Positions 2,263 to 56,440 of a stretch of 64,000 bases of DNA are shown here, piece after piece. The stretch comes from Tardiphaga sp. Lineage in GTDB: Bacteria > Pseudomonadota > Alphaproteobacteria > Rhizobiales > Xanthobacteraceae. The notes under the pieces were generated by a model. The model ran no database searches. It saw nothing but the letters and a program-made list of their open reading frames with translations, and was not told where the DNA came from. The translations under genes were made by a program, and so were the position numbers. The stretch lies in assembly GCF_028290495.1 (NCBI RefSeq), contig NZ_JAQGJT010000138.1, positions 62,001-126,000 of the forward strand. Direction: 5' to 3'. Positions within the stretch are counted from its first letter, which is position 1. Each line of letters opens with the position of its first letter.

Positions 2263-3633
2263 ATGCCAAGCGATTTCAGGGTGGCGGTTGTGCAAACGTT
2301 GTCAAAAACCCGGCTCGGATGCTTGCTGTTTGCGGTGATCCTCGGCGCTGTGTCAGCCCGGGCGCAACAGCCATCGACCACCCCGATCTCCGCCGCAACC
2401 GTCGTGCAGCAGGACTACGAGGCGCTTTTCCAGCAGATGTACAAGAACCCGTCCAACCTGGACGTGACGTTCAAGTTTGCCGAACAGGCGGTTGCGCGAG
2501 CCGACTACGAGGCCGCCATCGGCGCCCTCGAGCGCATGCTGTTCTTCAATCCCAACCTGCCGCGGGTAAAACTCGAATTGGGCGTGCTGTACTTCAAGCT
2601 CGGTTCGTTCGAACTCGCGCGCGGCTATTTGCAGGACGCCATCAAGGGAAACGACGTTCCCGATGACGTCCGCGCCCAGGTCAGGGCCTATCTCGCCGAG
2701 ATCGACCGGCGCCTGGCGCGCTATGAGTTCAGCGGATTTTTCCACGCCGGCCTGCGCTACCAGACCAACGCGAATGTCGGTCCCGAAAGCCTGCTGATCC
2801 GTGCACTCGGACAGGATGCCATTCTCGACAACCGTTTCGGCAAGCAAGCCGACTGGAATTTCTTCCAGACCGTCGGCGCCAACTATGCCTACAAGATCGG
2901 AACGCGCGGCGACGCGCTGGAGGCGACGTTCTTCGGTATCGGCACCCAGCAGTTCAAGCTCGATCAGTTCAACCTCGGACTTGTTGAACTCATTGTCGGC
3001 CCGCGGATCGCCATCGGCCAGAATGCCTCGTTCAAGGTCTACGGCATCGGCGACCAAGTCTGGCTCGGCGGCGCCAACTATTTCAATGCGCTGGGCGGCG
3101 GCGTTTCGGCCCGGACAACGATCGGCGACAACGTGTTCGTCGAAGCCTACGTCGAAAATCGCCACCGCCAGTTCTCCGATTCACTGAACTACCCTACATC
3201 GAGCGAGCAGACCGGCGACCTGCTGTCGACGTCCGTTCTGGGAGATCTCCGCTTCGGTCCGCTGCACTGGATAACCCGCATCGGATACGACCAGAACAGC
3301 GCGGTGTTCAGCTACAACAGCTACAAGCGCTACTCGGTCGATATGACCATTCCCTACGAGTTCAGCCTGTCGGTGCTGGGCGTGCCGCGCCAGTTCGCGT
3401 TCGCGCTGACGGCCGGATACAGCTGGGCAAACTACATGGACCCCAATCCGATCATCGACCCGTTCATGGCGCGCAACGATCGCGAGCAGCGCTATGGCGC
3501 CATCTTCGATGCCCAGGTCGTCGACAATCTCGGCATCCGCACCCAGGTACAATACTCCAAGATCGATTCGACACTTCCGAACTACAGGATGGATAATCTC
3601 TCCGTCTCGTTCGGCCCCAGCGTCCGGTTCTGA
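2263..3633 (+). CDS. Slam/DUF560-like outer-membrane protein: TPR region plus beta-barrel
   Basis: About 456 residues. A signal peptide ends near ARAQ (about residue 35); a TPR-like helical region follows (about 65-155, with paired A-A-x-x-x-L-E-R-M-L and E-L-A-R-G-Y-L-Q repeats), then about 300 residues of alternating aromatic/hydrophobic strands ending in SVRF, the terminal Phe typical of outer-membrane barrels. The TPR-to-barrel junction reads GLRYQTNANVGP, close to the Y-D-S-N-V-N signature that opens the barrel of Slam (DUF560, PF04575), the surface lipoprotein assembly modifier. Slam-type proteins carry cargo across the outer membrane. The next gene encodes a plausible cargo. Start uncertain: TTG 2251, ATG 2263, or GTG 2290, which has the best ribosome site (AGGGTGG). 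The Slam assignment is by motif and architecture only. Confidence 0.75.
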   Translation: MPSDFRVAVVQTLSKTRLGCLLFAVILGAVSARAQQPSTTPISAATVVQQDYEALFQQMYKNPSNLDVTFKFAEQAVARADYEAAIGALERMLFFNPNLPRVKLELGVLYFKLGSFELARGYLQDAIKGNDVPDDVRAQVRAYLAEIDRRLARYEFSGFFHAGLRYQTNANVGPESLLIRALGQDAILDNRFGKQADWNFFQTVGANYAYKIGTRGDALEATFFGIGTQQFKLDQFNLGLVELIVGPRIAIGQNASFKVYGIGDQVWLGGANYFNALGGGVSARTTIGDNVFVEAYVENRHRQFSDSLNYPTSSEQTGDLLSTSVLGDLRFGPLHWITRIGYDQNSAVFSYNSYKRYSVDMTIPYEFSLSVLGVPRQFAFALTAGYSWANYMDPNPIIDPFMARNDREQRYGAIFDAQVVDNLGIRTQVQYSKIDSTLPNYRMDNLSVSFGPSVRF

Positions 3634-3646
3634 AAGGCAGCTTGTG

Positions 3647-5992
3647 ATGATGAGCATGACAAGACACCCGATTGCCGGAATAGCGGTCTCCGTGGCCGCG
3701 ATGTTGGCCGCGGGCGGCATGGCAACGGCGCAGCAGGTCGGGACGGCGTCGGCGGTTAATCCTGCCGCCACCTCCAATATGCGAACGATCACGATCGGCG
3801 CTTCGATCGCGCACAAGGAGCGCATCCAGACCCAGGCCGGCGGCTCCGTTCAATTGCTGTTCATCGACAAGACATCGATGACCATCGGCCCGAACAGTGA
3901 CCTGACAATCGATGAATACGTATTCGATCCCAAGGCGAACACCGGCAAACTCGCGGCGACCCTTGGCAAGGGTGCACTTCGCTTTGTCGGCGGGCAGATC
4001 AGCCATAACGGCGAAGCCGAGGTCAAGACCGCCTCCGCGGTGATCGGCATTCGCGGCGGCATCAATTTCATGACGGTCGCGAACGGCGAGACCCAGTCCT
4101 ACACCGGCTACGGATCTTCAACGGTGTCGTCCGGCGGCAGCACCGTCACCCTCGGGGCCGGAGAGTATACAAGGACCCAGGGCACTGGCGCTCCGCCGGT
4201 CCCTCCCGGCCTGCCTCCGGCGGGATTTGTCGCGATGCAGGTCCAGTCCTATCAAAGCGCCGGCGGACAAAGCGGCGGCGCGCCGGCAGGAACGGCGACG
4301 CCCGCGCGCGTAGCCAGCGCCGAAGCGCGGGCTACGAATTCGTCGACCGGCACGGTGGCACAGGTCGCGCCGGTCAACGCCAACGGCACCGTGCAGGTCG
4401 CCACCGCCACCACGTCGCCCCTCACCACGCAAAACCGGCAGAACGCGATTACCTCAAGTGTCACCCAGGCAGCGCAAACCTCCACCCAGAGCGCCGCAAC
4501 GACGGAGGTCGCACAAGAGATTGTCCGGCAACGACAGTTCAGCGCCACGGCTTACGCGCTGACCATGAGCAATTGTTGCGGCACGGGTGCGAACATTTCC
4601 AGCGTGCCTTACCTCCCGGCAGGTTTTGCTACCGGAAATTCCTATGTGTCTCCCGTGCTGGGCTACCGCACAGCGAGCGTCGATGTCGCCAACCGTGCGC
4701 CGTACTTCCAGTACGGAATCGGAATCACGGGCGAAGGCGCGGCGCAGCATTCCTGGTTTATGGTCGCCACCGGCGCGTTGATCGACGACGGCAACGGCGG
4801 CTCCGTATTCTCCAGCGGCTTCGGCGCCACCCGCCGCGGCGCCGCCAATCTCGGCGTCGGCCGCGCCAGCGGCGCGATCTCATCGACCGCGGGATCGGTG
4901 GCATTGGACGAGGCGGGTCTGCCAACTACCGCGCAGATCACCAGTTCGTATTATATTCCGGAATCGAAGACCTACGTCTCGCAACCGGCCACATCGTTTT
5001 TCGGTGATGGCACCCCGGTCACTAACTATGAATACATCCAGACCGCCAGCCGAATTCCGACGCCGGCCGATCTCGGCGTCAACCGCCCCACGGTCGTACT
5101 GAGCGGCTTTTCCGCCGGATTGATGCGATCGTTCAACACCACCGCCGGGGCCTTCGTCGGACCCAGCTTCGCGGTCGGCGGACTGGCGACGGTCAACCTC
5201 GACGCCAACGTCAACCGGATGCAGGCCAACTTCGATATCGTCAACCTGCAACCCTCCACCGGCCAGACCTTCAATACGGCGAGTTATCAGATCGGCACCG
5301 TCGATCCTTCGCTGAGGTCGCGCGGCGTCTATGTGGACTATGACAATTTCGGCGGCCGCGAGGCGGTGACCGTAACCAACACGACGACCGGGGCGACACT
5401 TCCGGTGTCCACCGTCAACGGAAGGCCGCTGACGGGGCAGACTGCAATCATGGCCAATATTCCGAGGAACGTCGCGGTGCTCTCGGGCGCAAATGTCACC
5501 TTCTGCCAGTGCGATTATACGCGATGGGGTTTCTGGTCCAACGACAGCTACCGCACCGACGCCAACGGCAACCAGATCGCCGACCGCGGCAACCTCATGA
5601 CCTGGGTGGCAGGACGCCTGCCGAACATATCTGAAGTACCAACCACTGGCATCGCCACCTATGACGGCCATATCGTCGCCAGCGTCCGGAATGGTGCGAA
5701 TGAATATGTCGCGGCTGGCAACTTCACCAACACCGTCAATTTCGGAACGCGCTCCGGCGCGGTTACCGCGGGACTGGATAATACGGCCTATTCCGGAACG
5801 GTGAATCTCAGCAGCGACCCGCGCAATTTTAGCGGAGCGTTGATCGGAAACAATGGCGGACGCGCCATGGCGATGGTCGGCCAGTTCTATCGCGGCGTCG
5901 CCGGCCCCACTGCGGAGATGGGCGGCCTCGCGACCGCTCAGGGGAATGGCAACTACATGGCGAGCGGTATATTCGCCGGAAGGATGAGATAA
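3647..5992 (+). CDS. Exported FecR-domain protein with TbpB-like C-terminal barrel
   Basis: About 781 residues from ATG 3647, 13 bases after the Slam-like gene and preceded by AAAGG, so co-transcribed. A signal peptide ends at ATAQQ (about residue 30). A FecR domain spans about 45-142 (TIGASIAHKERIQT through AVIGIRGG). A Thr/Ser/Ala/Gln-rich stretch follows (about 190-300), then a long unrecognised region with a Cys-Cys pair and a CQCDYTRWGFW motif. The last 90 residues (about 690-781) alternate short strands and Gly turns: GNFTN, NFGTRSG, FSGALIG, a G-x-F-Y-x-G-x-A-G-P-T-A-E-M-G-G segment and a final GIFAGRMR. This matches the pattern of the eight-stranded TbpB-type lipocalin barrel carried by Slam substrates. 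No lipobox was seen, so it may be released or anchored another way. Cargo status is inference. Confidence 0.75.
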   Translation: MMSMTRHPIAGIAVSVAAMLAAGGMATAQQVGTASAVNPAATSNMRTITIGASIAHKERIQTQAGGSVQLLFIDKTSMTIGPNSDLTIDEYVFDPKANTGKLAATLGKGALRFVGGQISHNGEAEVKTASAVIGIRGGINFMTVANGETQSYTGYGSSTVSSGGSTVTLGAGEYTRTQGTGAPPVPPGLPPAGFVAMQVQSYQSAGGQSGGAPAGTATPARVASAEARATNSSTGTVAQVAPVNANGTVQVATATTSPLTTQNRQNAITSSVTQAAQTSTQSAATTEVAQEIVRQRQFSATAYALTMSNCCGTGANISSVPYLPAGFATGNSYVSPVLGYRTASVDVANRAPYFQYGIGITGEGAAQHSWFMVATGALIDDGNGGSVFSSGFGATRRGAANLGVGRASGAISSTAGSVALDEAGLPTTAQITSSYYIPESKTYVSQPATSFFGDGTPVTNYEYIQTASRIPTPADLGVNRPTVVLSGFSAGLMRSFNTTAGAFVGPSFAVGGLATVNLDANVNRMQANFDIVNLQPSTGQTFNTASYQIGTVDPSLRSRGVYVDYDNFGGREAVTVTNTTTGATLPVSTVNGRPLTGQTAIMANIPRNVAVLSGANVTFCQCDYTRWGFWSNDSYRTDANGNQIADRGNLMTWVAGRLPNISEVPTTGIATYDGHIVASVRNGANEYVAAGNFTNTVNFGTRSGAVTAGLDNTAYSGTVNLSSDPRNFSGALIGNNGGRAMAMVGQFYRGVAGPTAEMGGLATAQGNGNYMASGIFAGRMR

Positions 5993-6010: not shown

Positions 6011-6427
6011 TCACAGCGCGCCGGGCGATGAATGCAGCGACATGTTGGACGACTGGTGTATCGGCGCGCCGGCGCTCGGAGCCAGGTAACGCGCGGTCGA
6101 ACTCGTTTGCTTTCCAAGCGCCGTATCGCGGACGATCACGGACATCCCGGCGCCATCAGGCGACGGCGATACTTCAGATACCATGTTCGGCTGCATGGCG
6201 ATCACCTCGCGGGCGACGGCAACCGAGGCCGCACGCCGTTCGACGTCGGATTGTCCCGCGGATGAAGCCAGCGAACTCACGCCAGCCAGCGCGGCGGTGT
6301 CGGCCAGTTCCTGCAAACGGGCGCTGGACGAATAGCTGTTGGCTTGCATGGCCAGCACCAGGCAGATGGGCACCATCGCCGCGGCAGCAACCACCAGACG
6401 AACAGCTATCGATCGGGCCAGTAACAT
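6011..6427 (-). CDS. TadE/TadG-like pilus-assembly or pseudopilin-like protein
   Basis: 138 residues from ATG 6427, chosen because GGAGG lies five bases upstream; longer in-frame starts lack one. A single N-terminal membrane helix (about 7-27) is followed by SSSARLQELADTAALAGVSSLA, the pattern of the TadG-type Flp pilus proteins in which a membrane helix precedes a D-x-A-A-L-A-G motif. The remainder is about 80 residues of Ser/Ala-rich exported sequence, much shorter than full TadG, so this is a TadG N-domain-only protein. It is convergent with the FecR gene, 18 bases from it. No other tad genes are adjacent; a Flp-type pilin lies at 50.9-51.0 kb. Confidence 0.65.
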   Translation of the reverse strand: MLLARSIAVRLVVAAAAMVPICLVLAMQANSYSSSARLQELADTAALAGVSSLASSAGQSDVERRAASVAVAREVIAMQPNMVSEVSPSPDGAGMSVIVRDTALGKQTSSTARYLAPSAGAPIHQSSNMSLHSSPGAL

Positions 6428-6736
6428 AACGGCCTCCAGAAATCTGCGATGGACTGTGCGAAGAGGTCTCAAGGCGGCAGCTTCCGGTTCAACGTACCAC
6501 CGTCGCCTGCCCGATTTGACACCTGCCTGCCTAACGAATTGCAAACAGTGGCGGAACAACGCCTGCCCGCCCCTTGCTGTTCCGCGCTATATATTGCCAA
6601 ACTCCTGCGTCCCCATGGAACCGGATGGCAACTTGATTTTCTCGCAGTCCCGCACGCCGATGGTTGGATCGCGAACGTACCCTCGTGCACGACATGCTAA
6701 CCATGATGACAGCTTGCGATGTGACGGGGGCGGCGA
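6428..6736. other. Intergenic region between divergent TadG-like and cyclase genes
   Basis: About 310 bases. It contains the ribosome site of the TadG-like gene at its left edge. Small open frames cross it on both strands but none shows a signal sequence, codon bias or a convincing ribosome site. Promoters for both divergent genes are expected here; no motif was recognised. Confidence 0.35.
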
Positions 6737-8989
6737 ATGAACCGCCCGGAACGTTCTCCGCGTGCGAGATGGGGCCGCACCGCCGTGCTCCTGATCCGCC
6801 TTCGCCGGTTCTGGCGCCACAAGAACAGCCGCGCTGTGACCGCTGCGATCGCGACCCTGGTCGCCCTGACGTTGCTGCGCGCCTATGATCCGCGGATCGT
6901 CAGCGAGTTGAAGGAGCGCACCTTCGATGCCTATCAGCGGCTGCAGCCGCGGCCGTTTACCGAACAGCCGGTGCGGATCGTCGATATCGACGAAGCCTCG
7001 ATTGCCGAATTCGGCCAGTGGCCGTGGCCGCGAACCCGCCTTGCAGCCGTGACCCGCCGCCTTGCTGAACTGGGCGCCGGCGTGGTCGCCTTCGACGTCA
7101 TCTTCTCCGAGCCGGACCGCACCACGCCAAGCCAGCTCGGCGCCGATCTTCAGGCCGCCGACGTGCCCGACCGCGAACTAACGCTGGCGCTGCTCGCCAG
7201 GCTGCCGGACCACGACCAGTTGTTTGCCGATGCGATCGGCAAGAGCCCGGTCGTGCTCGGCTTCGCCGCGAGTAGCGCCGCCAACGACAAGCGTCCGCCC
7301 GTTCGCGCCGGACTGGCTTTCGTCGGCGTCAAGCCCACCTCGGTGCTCACGCCGTTTCGCGGAACGGTGGCGAGCCTGCCCCTGCTTCAGGATGCCGCCG
7401 CGGGGATCGGCGGCATCAACCTGAGCAGCCGCGACCGATCCGGCATCGTCCGCCGCGTGCCGATGCTGTTTGCCGATGGCGAACGCGTCTATCCCGGACT
7501 GGCGGTGGAGGCTCTGCGCGTAGCGCAAAACCAGAAAGGCATCATCGTTCGCGGCACCGGCGCCAGCGGCGACGAGGACACCGGACACGCCGCCCTGATC
7601 GACATGCGGGTCGGCGATTTCAAGCTGCCGCTCACCGACAACGGCGAGGCGTGGATCTACTACGACCATGACCGGCCCGAGCGTTACGTCTCGTTCAGGG
7701 ATGTCCTCGACCCCGCGAAGGAGGCCGAGGTCCGGCCGCGCATCGAGGGCGCGATCGTTCTGGTGGGGACATCGGCGACCGGCCTGCTCGACCTGCGCGC
7801 TACGCCGCTGGGCGAGATCGTTCCCGGTGTAGCCATCCATGCGCAACTGATCGAGCAGATCATCGCGCAGGATTTCATCGATCGGCCGGACTGGGCCAAC
7901 GGCCTCGAAATCGTCCTGACGCTGCTGTTCGGTGCGCTTGTCACCGGACTTGTTCTCGCCTTCGGCGCCCGGTTTTCGTTTTACGCAGGTGGCGTGGTGT
8001 TCGCCGCGGCGGTGGCGGCATCTTGGCTTGCGTTCTCGCAGTTGCGGCTGCTGATCGATCCGATCTATCCGTCGCTGGCGGCATTCGCGACCTACGTGGC
8101 CGTCGAGCGCGTGCTGCACCTGGCTTCCGATCACGAGAAAAAGTTCGTGCGTCAGGCGTTCGGACAGTATCTCGCGCCGGAATTGCTGGCGCGGCTGGAA
8201 AATTCGCCGCAGGCCATGAAGCTTGGCGGCGAGAGCCGCGAGATCACGGTGATGTTCATGGACGTCCGCGGCTTCACGCCGATCTCGGAGGCGCTGCCCG
8301 CGACCGACCTGGTGGATTTCATCAACACGCTGCTGGCGCCGCTGTCGGACGCCATCCAGGACGAACTCGGCACTATCGACAAGTACATCGGCGATTCCAT
8401 CATGGCGTTCTGGAACGCGCCACTGGATATCGACGATCACGCCACCCGCGCCTGTCGCGCTGCCCTCAAGATGCGCGCCGCCGTCGCCATGCTCAACGAC
8501 ACCGACGGGTTTGGTTTCGCAGCACGCGGATTTCCCGACCCGGTGGTCAGGATCGGCGTCGGCATCAATGCCGGTCTCGCCTGCGTCGGCAACATGGGAT
8601 CGCAGAAGCGGTTCAACTATTCGGCGATGGGCGATGTCGTCAATGTCGCCGCCCGCATCGAATCCGCCAGCAAGAATTTTCACACCGACCTTCTAGTATC
8701 GCATGACGTGGTCGGGCTTGTGCGCGGCGTGGCGCTGCTGGAGGCCGGCGAAATCCTGCTGAAGGGAAAGTCGAAGCCGACCAAGGTCTACGCCATCGCC
8801 GGCGACGAGACCGTCGCCGCCTCCGTGGACTTCATTGAACTGACCCGGCTGCACCGCTGGCTGCTGCAATCGATCGAGGCGCGAAAGCCCCCGGAAGCCA
8901 CCGACGCGCTGGCGGCGTGCCGCGCGCTGGCCGGTGACGGCGTCGTCGGGCTGTATGACTATTTCGAAGAGCGTATCGCAACCCTGTGA
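6737..8989 (+). CDS. CHASE2-domain adenylate/guanylate cyclase
   Basis: 750 residues. One N-terminal membrane helix (about 33-50) leads into an extracytoplasmic CHASE2 sensor (about 60-385; VRIVDIDEASIAEFGQWPWPR and GVVAFDVIFSEPDR are signature segments). Two or three further helices (about 385-460) are followed by a class III nucleotide cyclase domain (about 490-690) with both metal-binding aspartates (MFMDVRGFT and IGDSIMAFW) and the KRFNYSAMGDVVNVAARIE segment. The protein should make cyclic AMP or GMP in response to an external signal. CHASE2 cyclases are often found beside FecR-domain genes; here the FecR/Slam-like pair lies immediately upstream with the TadG-like gene between. The C-terminal 60 residues are a helical tail of unknown role. 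Confidence 0.92.
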   Translation: MNRPERSPRARWGRTAVLLIRLRRFWRHKNSRAVTAAIATLVALTLLRAYDPRIVSELKERTFDAYQRLQPRPFTEQPVRIVDIDEASIAEFGQWPWPRTRLAAVTRRLAELGAGVVAFDVIFSEPDRTTPSQLGADLQAADVPDRELTLALLARLPDHDQLFADAIGKSPVVLGFAASSAANDKRPPVRAGLAFVGVKPTSVLTPFRGTVASLPLLQDAAAGIGGINLSSRDRSGIVRRVPMLFADGERVYPGLAVEALRVAQNQKGIIVRGTGASGDEDTGHAALIDMRVGDFKLPLTDNGEAWIYYDHDRPERYVSFRDVLDPAKEAEVRPRIEGAIVLVGTSATGLLDLRATPLGEIVPGVAIHAQLIEQIIAQDFIDRPDWANGLEIVLTLLFGALVTGLVLAFGARFSFYAGGVVFAAAVAASWLAFSQLRLLIDPIYPSLAAFATYVAVERVLHLASDHEKKFVRQAFGQYLAPELLARLENSPQAMKLGGESREITVMFMDVRGFTPISEALPATDLVDFINTLLAPLSDAIQDELGTIDKYIGDSIMAFWNAPLDIDDHATRACRAALKMRAAVAMLNDTDGFGFAARGFPDPVVRIGVGINAGLACVGNMGSQKRFNYSAMGDVVNVAARIESASKNFHTDLLVSHDVVGLVRGVALLEAGEILLKGKSKPTKVYAIAGDETVAASVDFIELTRLHRWLLQSIEARKPPEATDALAACRALAGDGVVGLYDYFEERIATL

Positions 8990-51473: not shown

Positions 51474-54400
51474 TCACCAGCCGTAGCGCACGACAGCCTT
51501 GCCGGCATAACTGCGCGTCACGTCGGAGAATTCGCCCTCGAACGTTGCTGCCAGCGTGATACCGTTGCGGAAACCGATCTCCGCCGACGCCGTCGTCAGC
51601 GCGGCATCCTTTGCCGGTGACGCGCCGTTCACCAGGAACGAAGCGCCGGGCAGCGACTGGAACGTGGCCGATGCCGAACGTTCGGTGTTGTAGTCATGCG
51701 CCCATGCCGCGCGGCCGCGCAATGTAAGTGCCCCATCCATCACCGCGAACGACTTGTCGCTGCGCAGGCCGAGTTCACTGCGCGGCGCGGTGATGCCCTT
51801 GCCGGCATAGGCCAGCGCAAACGTCGTCGGCCCCGACAGCGTGGTCTCCGCATAGGCCGGCAGGTCGAGATAGCTTACCTGCGCCGCTGCATAGGGGGTG
51901 ATGCCGACGCCGCCAAGCCACGGCATCGCGAAGCGATTGCCGGCCTCTAGCCGCGCCGACCAGGTATTGGTGTTAAAGTTGGCGCGCAACTGGTCGAGGC
52001 CGCCCACCGCCACCGTGCGGTCGGTCGTGACGTCCTGCCAGCCATAGGCCGCCGCTGCCGTCACATAGGCCGTGCCGACGCTGTGGCGGACGAAGCCGCC
52101 GATCTGGAACAGATCGGAGCGGCCCGAACCGCCACCTGCGACGCTGAAGCTGGTGGCGCCGCCGGCCAAAGCGAAGCCAGCCACGGTCTGCAGCGACAAA
52201 TGATAGTCCGCGCCGACCGCGACGCCGCCGATCCGGCTGGTCGATGTGTTCGAGCCAGTCGATACGCTGCCGTCGGTGGTCTGGGTGCCGCCGAAGCCGG
52301 TCGCCCACACATTCCAGAACGGCCGAAACGCCGGCACGGTCGGCACCGCCTTGGTGATCATGGCAAACGCATCGCGGGCGGCGCCGCTGCGATTCTCACG
52401 CGCCGCGTAAGAGCTCGTTGCATCGCCCTCCTCCGTATAAGGAATCGCCGACGACGCCGCGCCGCCGCGACCGGCAAGGGTCGGATCGGACATCGCGCCG
52501 ACGAACTGCGTCGCGGCGTTGAGGCTGGCCTGCTGGGTCGCGGTCGGCGTCTCGCCGGAGATCTGCGTCAGCGCTCCCGTGAGTTGGCTGCCGCTCAAGG
52601 CAGACACCGCGTCGAAGCGCGCCGGCAGCGCGCCGCCATTGTAAAAGTAGCTGTCATGCGCGGTCACCAGCGCCGCATGGTTGCGCGACAGCGCCAGGTC
52701 GCTGGCAAAACCGCCGACGGCGGTCAGCGTCACGTCAGTGAGGCTGTAGCTGAGGCTGGCGGTGTATCCGCGCGGCGCGCTGACCCCGGCGAACGTGCCG
52801 TTCAGCGCGTCCGCATGCAGGATGCTCTTGATCACCGTCCAGTTTTGCCATCCCGAGGACGCCGGGAATGTCACCGTGCCGCCGAGAAACGCGGTGCCCG
52901 ATACGTTGGCCGACGTCATGCCTGACATGTTGACATGCACAAGGTAGGTGGAACCGGACTGGAAGCCGAGATTGCCGGCGACCGTCATCGAGGTCCCCGG
53001 CGTCGAGCCCGGCGCGAAGATGCCGCCATTTTCGACCTGCGTCTTGCCCACCGTGCCGGTGCCCCGCAGCTCGCCGCCGCTGAACACCGAGATCTGGCTC
53101 GACGAGGCGATAGAACCATCGACTTGCAGCACGCCGCTTTTGACCTGCGTCAGGTTGCTGTAGCTGCTGGTGCCCGAGAGGATCAGCATCCCCGGGCCGG
53201 TCTTCACGATGCCACCGGGCGAAATACCATCGGTGATCGCGCTGGAGATGCGGGCATCCTGCGAAGTTGAGATGGCTGCAATGCCGGCGACGCGGATTGC
53301 ATTGCCTAGGCTCATTCCGGGCGCCGTCAAGCTCAAGGTGCTGGTGTCCTGGAGCGTCAGGACGCCGCTGCCGATGGACTGGAAGGTGTTGATCGCCAGC
53401 GTACTGCCTGACGTGACGGTGGTCCCGCCGCTGTACGTATTGACACCCTGGAGTTCGACCGCGCTGCCGCCCGTAGTGGTGATCGCCACCGCGCCGCCGC
53501 CGGTGATCGCATTGCCATAGGTCCAGCTCTCGCTGGTCTGCGCCAGCGTCATCAGCCCGGAGGCGATGACGAGATTGCCGGTCAGCGTGGCGCCACCCGA
53601 CATGGTCAGCACGTTGCTGCCGCCATTGAAGACGATGGCGTTGCCAAGGCCGCCGCCTGAGGCGGCGCGTCCAGCACTGATACTGCCGTTGTTGATGATG
53701 GTGAGATCGGCGCCGGTCACGCCGGCGCCGCCGCGGCCAGCGCTGCCCGCTTGGCCTGTGACCGCGTCACCCAATCCGCCGTATCCGCCAATTCCGCCGG
53801 TGCCGCCCTGGACGGTGCCGCTATTGAGCAGCGTCGCGCCGCTGCTGCTGAAAGCGATCCCGGCGCCGCCGTCACCGCCATTGCCGCCTCCGCTGCCGGA
53901 ATTGGATCCCTTGTTGCCCGCATAGCCGGCATTGCCTCCGGTACCGGCGGTACCGCCGGTGAGGACTGAAGTCCGGCTGACGGTAACCACGCTGGCGCCG
54001 GTCACCGATACGGCATTGCCGCCAGCCCCGCCGCCACCGCCACCGCCACCGTTGCCACCAACGTTGGCGGAGGAAACGCCATCGCCACCATTGCCGCCGT
54101 GGTCTCCGCCGCCTCCCGAAATGATCGAATTGATCGTCAGCGGGCCGGCGATGGTCTGTCCGTTGGTCCCGCCATTGCCGCCGCCCCCGCCCCCACCGCC
54201 GCATCCGCCGTCATAGCCGCTTGACCCGGCGGCGCCGGAAGCGCCACCCGCGCCGCCGCCGTTGCCGGCGGCACTTCCGGCGCCGCCGCTCCCGCCACCG
54301 GCACCGCCGCCGCCGCCTCCGCCGCCAGCGCTGCAATCGATCGCAACCGCGCCGGCGGTGCCGGCCGCACTATCGCCGCCGCCGGCACCGCCGGCGGTCG

Positions 54401-54611
54401 GATTTGCCAACGGAGCCGTATACGCCGACTGGCCAGCGCCGCCGGTTCCGCCATCGGCCAGTACCGACGTGGTGTTGAGCAGCAGCGCGGCAAACGCGAC
54501 AGACGACAGCTTCCGCTTGAGGTGATGAAGAATGCCGCGGGACGATGCCTGCAAGGCAACGAGGCCGGGGCGCGTCGTGTCACCGCGCGCCCGGATCTGC
54601 AAATTTTTCAC
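51474..54611 (-). CDS. Glycine-rich autotransporter (type Va)
   Basis: About 1045 residues. The proposed start is GTG 54611 (GGGGA at eight bases); ATG 54650 is an alternative. The long basic signal (VKNLQIRARGDTT to TSVLADGG, about 55 residues) is usual for autotransporters. A 200-residue passenger stretch is built of GGxGG/GGAGG repeats; PATR-type beta-helix units follow (YSGGTTVTSGSTLAIN, KTGPGMLILSGTSSYSN, FAPGSTPGTSMTVAGNL). The last 290 residues form the translocator barrel (FWNVWATGFGGTQ onward) ending in VRYGW with terminal aromatic. The reading frame continues upstream into the exporter gene but that part is antisense/out-of-frame DNA. Confidence 0.88.
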   Translation of the reverse strand: MKNLQIRARGDTTRPGLVALQASSRGILHHLKRKLSSVAFAALLLNTTSVLADGGTGGAGQSAYTAPLANPTAGGAGGGDSAAGTAGAVAIDCSAGGGGGGGGAGGGSGGAGSAAGNGGGAGGASGAAGSSGYDGGCGGGGGGGGNGGTNGQTIAGPLTINSIISGGGGDHGGNGGDGVSSANVGGNGGGGGGGGAGGNAVSVTGASVVTVSRTSVLTGGTAGTGGNAGYAGNKGSNSGSGGGNGGDGGAGIAFSSSGATLLNSGTVQGGTGGIGGYGGLGDAVTGQAGSAGRGGAGVTGADLTIINNGSISAGRAASGGGLGNAIVFNGGSNVLTMSGGATLTGNLVIASGLMTLAQTSESWTYGNAITGGGAVAITTTGGSAVELQGVNTYSGGTTVTSGSTLAINTFQSIGSGVLTLQDTSTLSLTAPGMSLGNAIRVAGIAAISTSQDARISSAITDGISPGGIVKTGPGMLILSGTSSYSNLTQVKSGVLQVDGSIASSSQISVFSGGELRGTGTVGKTQVENGGIFAPGSTPGTSMTVAGNLGFQSGSTYLVHVNMSGMTSANVSGTAFLGGTVTFPASSGWQNWTVIKSILHADALNGTFAGVSAPRGYTASLSYSLTDVTLTAVGGFASDLALSRNHAALVTAHDSYFYNGGALPARFDAVSALSGSQLTGALTQISGETPTATQQASLNAATQFVGAMSDPTLAGRGGAASSAIPYTEEGDATSSYAARENRSGAARDAFAMITKAVPTVPAFRPFWNVWATGFGGTQTTDGSVSTGSNTSTSRIGGVAVGADYHLSLQTVAGFALAGGATSFSVAGGGSGRSDLFQIGGFVRHSVGTAYVTAAAAYGWQDVTTDRTVAVGGLDQLRANFNTNTWSARLEAGNRFAMPWLGGVGITPYAAAQVSYLDLPAYAETTLSGPTTFALAYAGKGITAPRSELGLRSDKSFAVMDGALTLRGRAAWAHDYNTERSASATFQSLPGASFLVNGASPAKDAALTTASAEIGFRNGITLAATFEGEFSDVTRSYAGKAVVRYGW

Positions 54612-54856
54612 GTCGCTGTCCCCGGGTCGGCGTCCACGCCTGTCCGGCATCAGCCGAGCGACGAATCGCAAGTACCGTAGCGCAACCACAGGTATCCGAG
54701 TAAATTCGTTTGAGCTGTTCCGGTGCTTCGGAAACTGGACCGCATGGCCGTCGGCGGGCTGCACACGGCAGCGATGGCCACACCCCACCGCATTTGAAGG
54801 CGGCACAGGGCATTCTCTCCCGGCCGGCCGCGGTGCGATTGCCGCAGTGTTCCGCC

Positions 54857-56440
54857 CTACTCGGAAACCAGGCTTGGCGCGGCCTTGGCCGGTCCCGCCA
54901 GCGGGCGTTCTTCCATCAGCATCAGGAACACCGCCGCCAGCGCCATCATCGCGGCAGATGCCTCGAACACGTAGCGGAACGCCCCGACCATGTCGGCGAC
55001 GGCGATCGGATGCGCGGAGCCCGCATGGTCGCCGGAGATCGTGATGCCGCTGCCCAGCGCCATCAGCAGGATGGTGGTGAAGGCCGCCACCGTGAACGAA
55101 GCCATCAGCGCGCGGAAGAAGTTCATCGCGCCGGTCGCAGTGCCGATCTGGGCGCGGGCCACCGCGTTCTGGATCGAGACCACGGTGACCGGAAAGGCGG
55201 TGCCGAGTCCGGTCGAGAAAATGCCAAGCAAAGTGAGCAGCGCCCACAGCGGCATCGGCATCGCCAGCGCCAGTATCAGGGCCATCAGCGCCGACACGGC
55301 GGTGCCGATGATGGCGACGCGCTTGTAGTGCCTGGCGCGGGTCATCATGTGCCCGGCGAAGGCCGCGCCCGCCACCGAAATCGCGGCGATCGGAATCAGC
55401 GCCAGCCCGGCCTCGGCGGCCGTGAGGCCATACACCACCTCATAGAACAGCGGCAGGTGCACAGTCAGTCCGATCATCGCGCCCATCGCGCAGCCGCCGG
55501 CGGCGATCGCGTAAGGCACCACCGAGCCGGACATCAGTTGCAGCGGCAGGAACGGCTCATCCGCATGCAGCGCGTGCCAGATGAAGGCGAACGCCAGCAC
55601 CGCGGCGGTTCCAAGCATCCAAAGGATCGTCGGCGATGCCCATGAGAACCTGGTGCCGCCCCAGGTCAGCACCAGCATGAACACCAGCGCCGAGGCCATC
55701 AGCAGCACGCCACCCAGCCAGTCGACCTTGCGCATGCGATGGAAGACGGGAATCTTTTTCATATTAGGCAGCAGCATTGCCAGCGCCACCACACCGAGCG
55801 GGATGTTGATCCAGAAGATCATCGACCAGTGCAGGTGCTCGGCGAACAACCCGCCGAGGATCGGCCCGCCGATGCCCGCCGCGACCCAGACGCTGCTGAA
55901 ATAGGCCTGATACTGGCCGCGCTCGCGCGGCGTGACCACGTCGGAGATCACCGTCTGCACGATCGGCAGGATGCCGCCGCCGCCGAGGCCCTGCAGGCCA
56001 CGGCCGAGGATCAGCACCAGCATGTTCGGCGCCAGCGCGCACATCACCGAGCCCGCCATGAACAGCGCCAGCGCCACGATGATCGTGGCGCGACGGCCAT
56101 AGATATCGCTGAGCGTTCCGAACACCGGCGCCACCGCAGTCGATGCCAGCAGATAGGCGGTGATCACCCATGACAGGTTGGTGACGTCGCTGAACTGGCG
56201 GCCGATGGTCGGCAGCGCGGTCGCTACGATGGTCTGGTCGAGGGCGGCGAGAAACATCGTCAGCAGCAGGCTGATCAGGATGGTGCGGACTTCACTCGGC
56301 GTCAGCGGCGGCTTGACCGGCTGCGGCGCGTCTCCGACTTCCATCACCGCCGTCGGCAGATACGACAGTTCCTCGACCATCTCATCAGACAGTGCGTGAG
56401 GGGCGGCCGTTGACCCGCTCTGGGGTTCGAACTTGTTCAT
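54857..56440 (-). CDS. DHA2-family multidrug exporter (MFS, 14 helices)
   Basis: 527 residues: about 50 cytoplasmic residues, then 14 membrane helices. Motifs: LDQTIVATALPTIG (DHA2 helix 1), GTLSDIYGRRATII (motif A), GRGLQGLGGGGILP, and VAAGIGGPILGG (motif C). It should export drugs or metabolites using the proton gradient. It is followed on the same strand by the autotransporter gene after about 250 bases. Confidence 0.93.
   Translation of the reverse strand: MNKFEPQSGSTAAPHALSDEMVEELSYLPTAVMEVGDAPQPVKPPLTPSEVRTILISLLLTMFLAALDQTIVATALPTIGRQFSDVTNLSWVITAYLLASTAVAPVFGTLSDIYGRRATIIVALALFMAGSVMCALAPNMLVLILGRGLQGLGGGGILPIVQTVISDVVTPRERGQYQAYFSSVWVAAGIGGPILGGLFAEHLHWSMIFWINIPLGVVALAMLLPNMKKIPVFHRMRKVDWLGGVLLMASALVFMLVLTWGGTRFSWASPTILWMLGTAAVLAFAFIWHALHADEPFLPLQLMSGSVVPYAIAAGGCAMGAMIGLTVHLPLFYEVVYGLTAAEAGLALIPIAAISVAGAAFAGHMMTRARHYKRVAIIGTAVSALMALILALAMPMPLWALLTLLGIFSTGLGTAFPVTVVSIQNAVARAQIGTATGAMNFFRALMASFTVAAFTTILLMALGSGITISGDHAGSAHPIAVADMVGAFRYVFEASAAMMALAAVFLMLMEERPLAGPAKAAPSLVSE

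Follow-up and report, generated by a model that had tools for sequence, protein, structure and literature searches.

We lean, with modest confidence, toward the hypothesis that two neighboring genes of the alphaproteobacterium Tardiphaga sp. form, with a cyclase gene farther downstream, an outside-in cyclic AMP (cAMP) module resembling a split version of the NsrA system. Its members would be a Slam-related translocator, a cargo-like protein with a FecR domain and a barrel, and a CHASE2 cyclase. The genes lie in a stretch of 64,000 nucleotides of contig NZ_JAQGJT010000138.1, which we call the window and whose positions serve as coordinates throughout. The first, P1 (2263..3633, plus strand), encodes a Slam-like outer membrane protein (OMP), and the second, P2 (3647..5992, plus strand), encodes an exported FecR protein; the ATG of P2 at 3647 lies 13 bases past the P1 stop on the same strand, with an in-frame GTG at 3644 as an alternative start. 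An earlier note, made from the sequence alone, had described this pair as a candidate Slam-type secretion system. Both open reading frames (ORFs) are where that note placed them, with the architecture, motifs and spacing that it gave, and what it missed is a CHASE2-adenylate cyclase gene at 6737..8989, with which such pairs often make up a trio.

A Divergent Relative of Slam

P1, read from the ATG at 2263, is a protein of 456 amino acids whose N-terminus looks signal-like by eye. A tetratricopeptide repeat (TPR) part of six helices at residues 44-151 (2392..2715) is followed by a predicted 14-stranded barrel at residues 154-456 (2722..3630), which opens with the strand RYQTNANV (residues 165-172) and ends in phenylalanine (...SVRF). 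This division rests on an AlphaFold2 model built with 64 relatives, which has a mean predicted local distance difference test (pLDDT) score of 86.5 and a predicted template modeling (pTM) score of 0.71. The model places helices at 44-151 and then 14 long strands at 154-455, counted from its strand list with a short hairpin at 178-187 omitted. The barrel of Slam likewise has 14 strands. Pfam matches in P1 are TPR_9 (3.5e-7) and TPR_Slam PF24575 (0.11), both under their cut-offs, and TPR proteins make up 60 of the 74 matches listed in a sequence search of the PDB. Across the family, TPR_Slam matches 14 of 16 members at E <=0.1 (best 3.9e-5), and the Slam model PF04575 matches one of the 16, at 0.0083.

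Because PF04575 gave nothing on P1 or on the whole genome, we tested homology to Slam with the family's own profiles; the PF04575 search was silent in control genomes as well. The barrel-only profile, built from 65 P1-family sequences and run on 616 ORFs from PF04575, NF041636 and neighboring loci, finds 10 of 23 PF04575 places at E <1e-4 and a further two at weaker scores (0.0018 and 0.0035); the best scores are 1.3e-11 (L179), 4e-11 (L174), 5.2e-11 (L172) and 2.9e-9 (L187). A TPR-only profile finds a larger set of Slam ORFs, and neither profile matches any reversed ORF of the same set. When the family is aligned with the barrel parts of Slam by hhalign, the probability is 99.3, or 98.0 with nine classical Slams only (two fragments among the templates are misplaced, and the classical set contains one of these), and the N-x-N strands of the two families are paired. 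In addition, tblastn of P1 on plasmids returns four records, from Shinella, Azospirillum, Paracoccus and Novosphingobium (the last at 1e-5). The Novosphingobium protein is annotated as a "surface lipoprotein assembly modifier" and adjoins a "transferrin-binding protein-like" gene; it is matched by the P1 barrel profile at 2.9e-13 and by PF04575 at 2.1e-26, and its neighbor by PF01298 at 4.7e-9. These profile comparisons argue that P1 is homologous to Slam in both its TPR and barrel parts and shares common descent with PF04575 proteins. Because the curated PF04575 model fails on it, we rank P1 as a divergent relative of Slam and not as a scored member of PF04575.

A FecR Protein with a Cargo-Type Barrel

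The product of P2 has 781 amino acids. Its signal-like stretch, judged by eye, ends in ...ATAQQ, and there is no lipobox; among 65 FecR ORFs a lipobox pattern occurs in three, in none of them at a likely cleavage site (by eye). The FecR domain is N-terminal, as expected from the earlier note, at residues 59-149 (3821..4093; PF04773, 9.1e-9). Farther on come the handle or pedestal strands of the model at about residues 483-604 (5093..5458), a CxC-x-YT-x-WG-x-W motif from C620 to W630 (5504..5536) at the barrel entry, and a barrel at about residues 626-780 (5522..5986), the last being indicated by NF041636, the model and Foldseek alike. A TbpB-type cargo barrel had been predicted for residues 690-781; the fold stands and that span was too short.

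NF041636, the NCBIfam family "Slam-dependent surface lipoprotein" (slam_lipo), matches residues 628-769 at 9.3e-11, and P2 is its sole match in the genome; the Pfam family PF01298 has no match in P2. A model of residues 470-781, built with 23 relatives (pLDDT 92.3, pTM 0.90), has the handle strands followed by the barrel. Foldseek compared this model with the PDB and returned 47 matches at E <=0.001, of which the best 27 are TbpB or LbpB structures (from 1.7e-8), followed by hemophilins (8glo, 6om5, 8gmm, 7re4, 8gm3), NHBA and fHbp; the remainder are a DUF3598 protein, AttH, a phosphosteroid lyase and a porin. For NHBA 6cuj the template modeling (TM) score is 0.70 normalized to the target. The cargo matches down to rank 31 have query TM scores of 0.33-0.43 and root-mean-square deviations of 6-22 A, and since the former are low and the latter large, the predicted likeness is one of fold and strand order and not of close superposition. 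A sequence search of the PDB with the P2 family gave borderline matches only: 20, at E 0.1-0.42, among which fHbp and NHBA account for 19. The model thus assigns the C-terminus of P2 to the cargo-barrel fold of TbpB, LbpB, hemophilin, NHBA and fHbp, which are known cargo of Slam or the type 11 secretion system (T11SS).

The motif before the barrel, in the form C-x-C-x-[YFL]-[TL]-x-W-G-x-W, is kept in 25 of 26 FecR-barrel ORFs from the named loci and the window. In a second set, scored by regular expression or eye, 8 of 14 FecR-barrel ORFs have CxC and one has CxxC. None of 19 barrel ORFs without FecR has the CxC pair, and some of these keep a Y-x-x-x-G-x-W strand. The pair could be a disulfide or a metal site. 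Residues of about 288-469 of P2 (window about 4508-5053), some 180 in all, are largely specific to the window among 10 aligned long forms.

Pairing of P1 and FecR Genes across Genomes

A species-genome collection scanned with the P1 alignment yielded 110 relatives, of which 80 loci were examined, several of them cut by contig ends. A FecR gene lies directly downstream of P1 on the same strand in 61 of the 80 loci, and two more loci end at P1. The barrel is present in the same ORF in 25 of the 61 partners. A family survey of 198 genomes, which overlaps the 80 named loci so that the counts are not independent, and in which kinship is uncorrected and gene neighbors were identified by our own profiles on stop-to-stop ORFs, found P1 in 52 genomes, with a FecR partner at most 600 bases away in 42. 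In nine further P1 genomes, all of one genus, the partner is at a distance of 23-200 kb or on a different contig, and one (G005) has no FecR partner listed, just a weak P2 match (6.7e-9). The barrel half of P2, scored in at most five candidates per genome, is found in 23 genomes, and all 23 carry P1. The P1 fold, the cargo-type barrel nearest to TbpB and LbpB, and the genomic co-occurrence, on which the earlier note had staked its reading, were all found.

Seven loci of a Nitrobacter type have P1 and the cyclase without an adjacent FecR gene. At four such loci (L045-L048) the OMP gene stands beside the cyclase, and the FecR-barrel gene is 23-200 kb off or on another contig. Approached from the cargo side, a scan of 240 genomes of the class with NF041636 matched 20, none over the cut-off. 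Twenty regions were drawn from the 19 matched genomes other than that of the window; nine of these regions have FecR and barrel in one ORF, and six of the nine adjoin a P1-type OMP, with a further one (L195) being cut at the contig start. In other regions the barrel cargo has no FecR domain, and in several of these a Slam-type OMP is encoded alongside. At one locus (L196, genome G342) a single ORF of 855 residues resembles slam_lipo in three stretches and is next to an OMP with a weak likeness to Slam.

P1 is absent from all 10 other sampled genomes of the window's genus, and the module was for this reason perhaps gained by transfer. The nearest named relatives of P1 are in a proteobacterial metagenome-assembled genome (MAG), Nitrobacter and Rhodopseudomonas, the best ones being mostly in the latter two genera; given this, and the absence in the same genus, the survey of co-occurrence across Bradyrhizobium once proposed may mislead. 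Since the contamination value of the genome bin is 5.95, we considered whether the window comes from a contaminant contig; the longer matches that another part of the contig has in same-genus genomes, at 67-78% identity, are compatible with either answer.

Recurrence of a Trio with a CHASE2 Cyclase

The third member in the window is a CHASE2-adenylate/guanylate cyclase of 750 amino acids on the plus strand (PF05226, 7.5e-60; PF00211, 2.2e-20), which we place in the module on the basis of synteny. A cyclase is present at 22 of the 80 P1 loci. A scan for CHASE2 covered 142 genomes and matched 63, from which 40 loci, one per genome, were picked by hand, chiefly those listed first, and so not at random. 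Of these, 12 have a P1-type OMP, 18 a FecR gene and 11 both, the 11 coming from different families; one, L271, was scored as an OMP locus on matches of 2e-6 and 1e-5 alone, and its cyclase matched the CHASE2 part of the cyclase profile only. FecR genes also occur in 7 of the 28 loci without a P1-type OMP. Reversed ORFs of the 40 loci gave no matches. FecR ORFs of more than 1,200 amino acids beside CHASE2 genes were considered as NsrA-like and dropped; those at L257, L284 and L287 have, by eye, the look of large repeat adhesins.

Outside the class, four genomes show the order FecR protein, PF04575 OMP, CHASE2 protein. At one of these loci (L208) the OMP matches PF04575 at 2.7e-19 and the cyclase scores 6.2e-54 and 1.3e-25, and at another (L211) the FecR protein passes the cut-offs of both FecR (1.3e-13) and TbpB_B_D (PF01298; 6.6e-7, 30.3 against 26 bits). 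Proteins that Pfam accepts as Slam thus appear, by their sequence matches, in the same FecR-CHASE2 trio. Trios are likewise annotated by NCBI on Shinella p1 and Paracoccus pAMI5, two of the four plasmids matched by P1, and their FecR proteins have slam_lipo matches of 1.2e-8 and 5.5e-9, under the cut-off. Partial sets occur as well: Azospirillum has the OMP and FecR genes and no cyclase, and Ruegeria has FecR and cyclase genes and no OMP. At L213 and L215, PF04575 proteins of other proteobacteria adjoin a protein with weak FecR, TPR and CsgG matches; at L213 it is followed by a TPR protein that TbpB_B_D matches at 2.1e-4, under the cut-off, so that FecR and barrel are on separate proteins.

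Comparison with NsrA and Other Known Systems

On pSymB of Sinorhizobium meliloti (L292), a 1,209-residue ORF lies just upstream of a CHASE2 cyclase gene. It combines a FecR match (1.8e-15) with TPRs at about 436-606 and a C-terminus resembling an outer membrane barrel (weak OMP_b-brl_3 match, 0.0061). We take this ORF to be NsrA; its layout is as expected of that protein, and nsrA presumably stands immediately upstream of cyaK in S. meliloti. In the parts of the papers available for this and the following comparisons, NsrA is an outer membrane receptor working with CyaK and CyaD1/D2, with a barrel at residues 600-1200 (PMC7529298), the NsrA-linked cyclases are called CHASE2 proteins (PMC13001267), and those parts describe no role of NsrA in secretion (PMC7529298, PMC13001267). 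Like NsrA-CyaK, the window has FecR, TPR and an outer-membrane-type barrel beside a CHASE2-adenylate cyclase. Unlike the two genes of the window, the NsrA-type layout is one fused protein, and no TbpB-type barrel was found in it.

P1 resembles the Slam/T11SS OMPs (DUF560, PF04575, PF24575) in its TPR and 14-strand barrel, the N-x-N first strand, the terminal phenylalanine, profile-level homology and a neighbor with a TbpB-type barrel, and differs in falling below detection by PF04575, in having FecR as its constant partner and in its cyclase neighbor. P2 resembles T11SS cargo in its C-terminal handle and barrel with a Y/W-x-x-x-G-x-W-like strand; unlike that cargo it has an N-terminal FecR domain, no lipobox, a CxC before the barrel and scores under the curated cut-offs. 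The earlier note saw in it a new cargo class marked by FecR and by the missing lipobox. The first mark holds insofar as "FecR" does not occur in the main text of PMC12282271, where some ten T11SS cargo architectures are listed. The second is not new, since soluble cargo accounts for 33 of 141 predicted clusters in the parts available of that paper.

The pairing of FecR with CHASE2 is already known. Campylobacterota CHASE2 cyclases cluster with a FecR outer membrane protein, a TPR protein and a phosphodiesterase (PMC9239204), so that a CHASE2 sensor stands by a FecR-domain envelope protein and a TPR protein as in the module. The Burkholderia BiofilmReg operon has a comparable FecR-CHASE2 kinase pair, which differs in having a histidine kinase and a LysM-FecR protein (PMC5192318). 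The available parts of these two papers name no Slam-type protein or TbpB-type barrel (PMC9239204, PMC5192318), and in the open-licence literature, supplements not covered, we found no link of FecR-CHASE2 to either. The T11SS papers that our joint searches of that literature found are likewise without FecR, the sole biological co-mention being a Lysobacter FecI-FecR cluster in which a FecR-family gene lies near a Slam-dependent TbpB homologue (PMC11233812); as far as the available text goes, that FecR is a classical sigma-factor regulator, encoded separately beside a TonB receptor, and not cargo.

Proposed Module and Its Alternatives

In the module that we propose, P2 would be the dedicated partner of P1 and would cross the inner membrane by means of a cleaved signal peptide, and P1 would recognize its C-terminal TbpB-type handle and barrel and carry it to or across the outer membrane. 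The P1-P2 pair would there read an external cue, which the FecR domain would pass in the periplasm to the CHASE2 domain, with cAMP then being made inside. The surface arm (Slam-like OMP and barrel), the periplasmic arm (FecR and TPR) and the inner membrane cyclase would make up the module in its simplest account, with parts united in a single protein in one case and split elsewhere. It is also conceivable, although we would call it rather unlikely, that P2 is a halfway cargo: P1 would bring its barrel to the surface, with the FecR domain left in the periplasm in contact with the cyclase's CHASE2 domain.

Several observations weigh against the proposed module. The HMM check against PF04575 suggested for P1, which had been likened to Slam/DUF560, gave no match, so that the TPR, the 14-strand barrel and the profile-level homology are what stand of that assignment; and 11 of the 23 PF04575 places, classical Slams such as L165-L168 among them, go undetected by the P1 barrel profile. 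The best Foldseek match of P1 in the PDB is BcsC, a polysaccharide channel (2.8e-9), followed by many porins, OmpG, whose barrel has 14 strands, reaching a TM of 0.63; no Slam structure is among the best 50. P2 scores 42.2 bits with NF041636 against a cut-off of 80. As many as 36 of the 61 adjacent FecR partners lack a barrel by profile (two of them open at a contig end). For this reason FecR, rather than the barrel, appears from these loci to be the constant partner of the P1-type OMP, and the barrel cannot be what every P1-family OMP recognizes; the same loci suggest that the link between OMP and FecR either predates the barrel or persists once the barrel is lost. Several FecR-only partners have a Pro/Gly-rich tail, which, speculatively, may replace the barrel. 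The FecR protein at L208, one of two out-of-class trios scanned with Pfam, has FecR only and no barrel match. No P1-type OMP lies within the fetched stretches around the FecR-barrel genes L199 and L204. The cyclase is missing at 58 of the 80 P1 loci; 33 of the 58 are FecR-only, and for 21 of the 33 there are 10 kb of downstream sequence. Among 78 loci with downstream DNA, 10 outside the Nitrobacter type have neither an adjacent FecR gene nor a cyclase, eight of the 10 being distant MAGs at 33-37% identity. The full and barrel-only P1 profiles do not find the pSymB fusion, and because they miss its barrel the argument from the fusion is one of domain layout and not of shared barrel descent. Finally, a single P1-P2-cyclase transcript is not assured, because a minus-strand ORF at 6011-6559 separates P2 from the cyclase; related ORFs occupy this position in L037 and L041, and Pfam gives it no match at 0.001.

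These points bear differently on the alternatives. Plain type 11 secretion, in which P1 exports the whole of P2 to the surface or medium, FecR is an N-terminal effector domain and the cyclase is a neighbor or a regulator of expression, strikes us as a minority prospect that deserves to be taken seriously. It would account for the barrel fold of P2, the Slam homology of P1 and the lack of a cyclase in 13 of the 25 FecR-barrel loci (some on short contigs), and in known cargo, pedestal and barrel do follow N-terminal effector domains that vary (available parts of PMC12282271). It does not predict that FecR, P1-type OMP and CHASE2 recur together in 11 families of the class (L271 being weak) and outside it, that Nitrobacter-type genomes keep the cyclase and not the cargo next to P1, or that S. 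meliloti has a FecR-TPR-barrel fusion with a cyclase. We consider it improbable that P1 is a channel for polysaccharides or small molecules like BcsC/PgaA, with P2 as a periplasmic lid or sensor whose barrel, rather than being exported, binds a ligand. The structural matches to BcsC and general porins and the many partners without a barrel would fit such a channel, as would the glycosyltransferase-type genes in all four FecR-only stretches checked (L050, L051, L052 and L054, chosen because such genes stood out there; PF00535 at 2.5e-22 in L051, PF06722 at 8.2e-10 in L054 and 1e-8 in L052) and beside the Azospirillum OMP-FecR pair, which also count against the proposed module. The P1-family profile, however, finds PF04575 proteins that are neighbors of TbpB_B_D proteins in L211, L213 and L294, P1 has 14 strands, as expected of Slam, versus the 16 of BcsC-type barrels, and the Shinella and Paracoccus stretches have no annotated glycan gene. 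For the FecR-only pairs with such genes nearby, and for the Azospirillum pair, a role in surface glycans is conceivable. At L050 (5697-8708; the contig is also that of L086) one OMP gene is accompanied by two FecR genes, which flank a glycosyltransferase-like gene. That two unrelated envelope proteins are neighbors by chance is scarcely credible: the low identity to named families is all that speaks for it, and set against it are the adjacency on one strand in 61 of 80 named loci, the retention of both genes in all nine genomes of the genus in which they are unlinked, and the silence of the module profiles across the other 55 kb of the window. Elsewhere in the window, a 1,257-residue autotransporter is encoded at 51474-55247 on the minus strand (PF03797, 4.8e-45).

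The module that we favor would join type 11 secretion with CHASE2-cAMP sensing, two fields that we did not find linked in the open-licence literature, and would add a cargo class with a named N-terminal domain, FecR. It would also extend the kin of Slam to alphaproteobacterial proteins missed by PF04575. If P2 is indeed a halfway cargo, a transmembrane receptor would include a type 11-like translocator, and cAMP would signal either a ligand bound outside by the barrel or the state of cargo export itself. More broadly, the module suggests an unrecognized signal path through the bacterial envelope, from a cue at the outer membrane to a cyclase in the inner membrane, and named species that carry P1 relatives, such as Rhodopseudomonas palustris and Nitrobacter vulgaris, make it testable.

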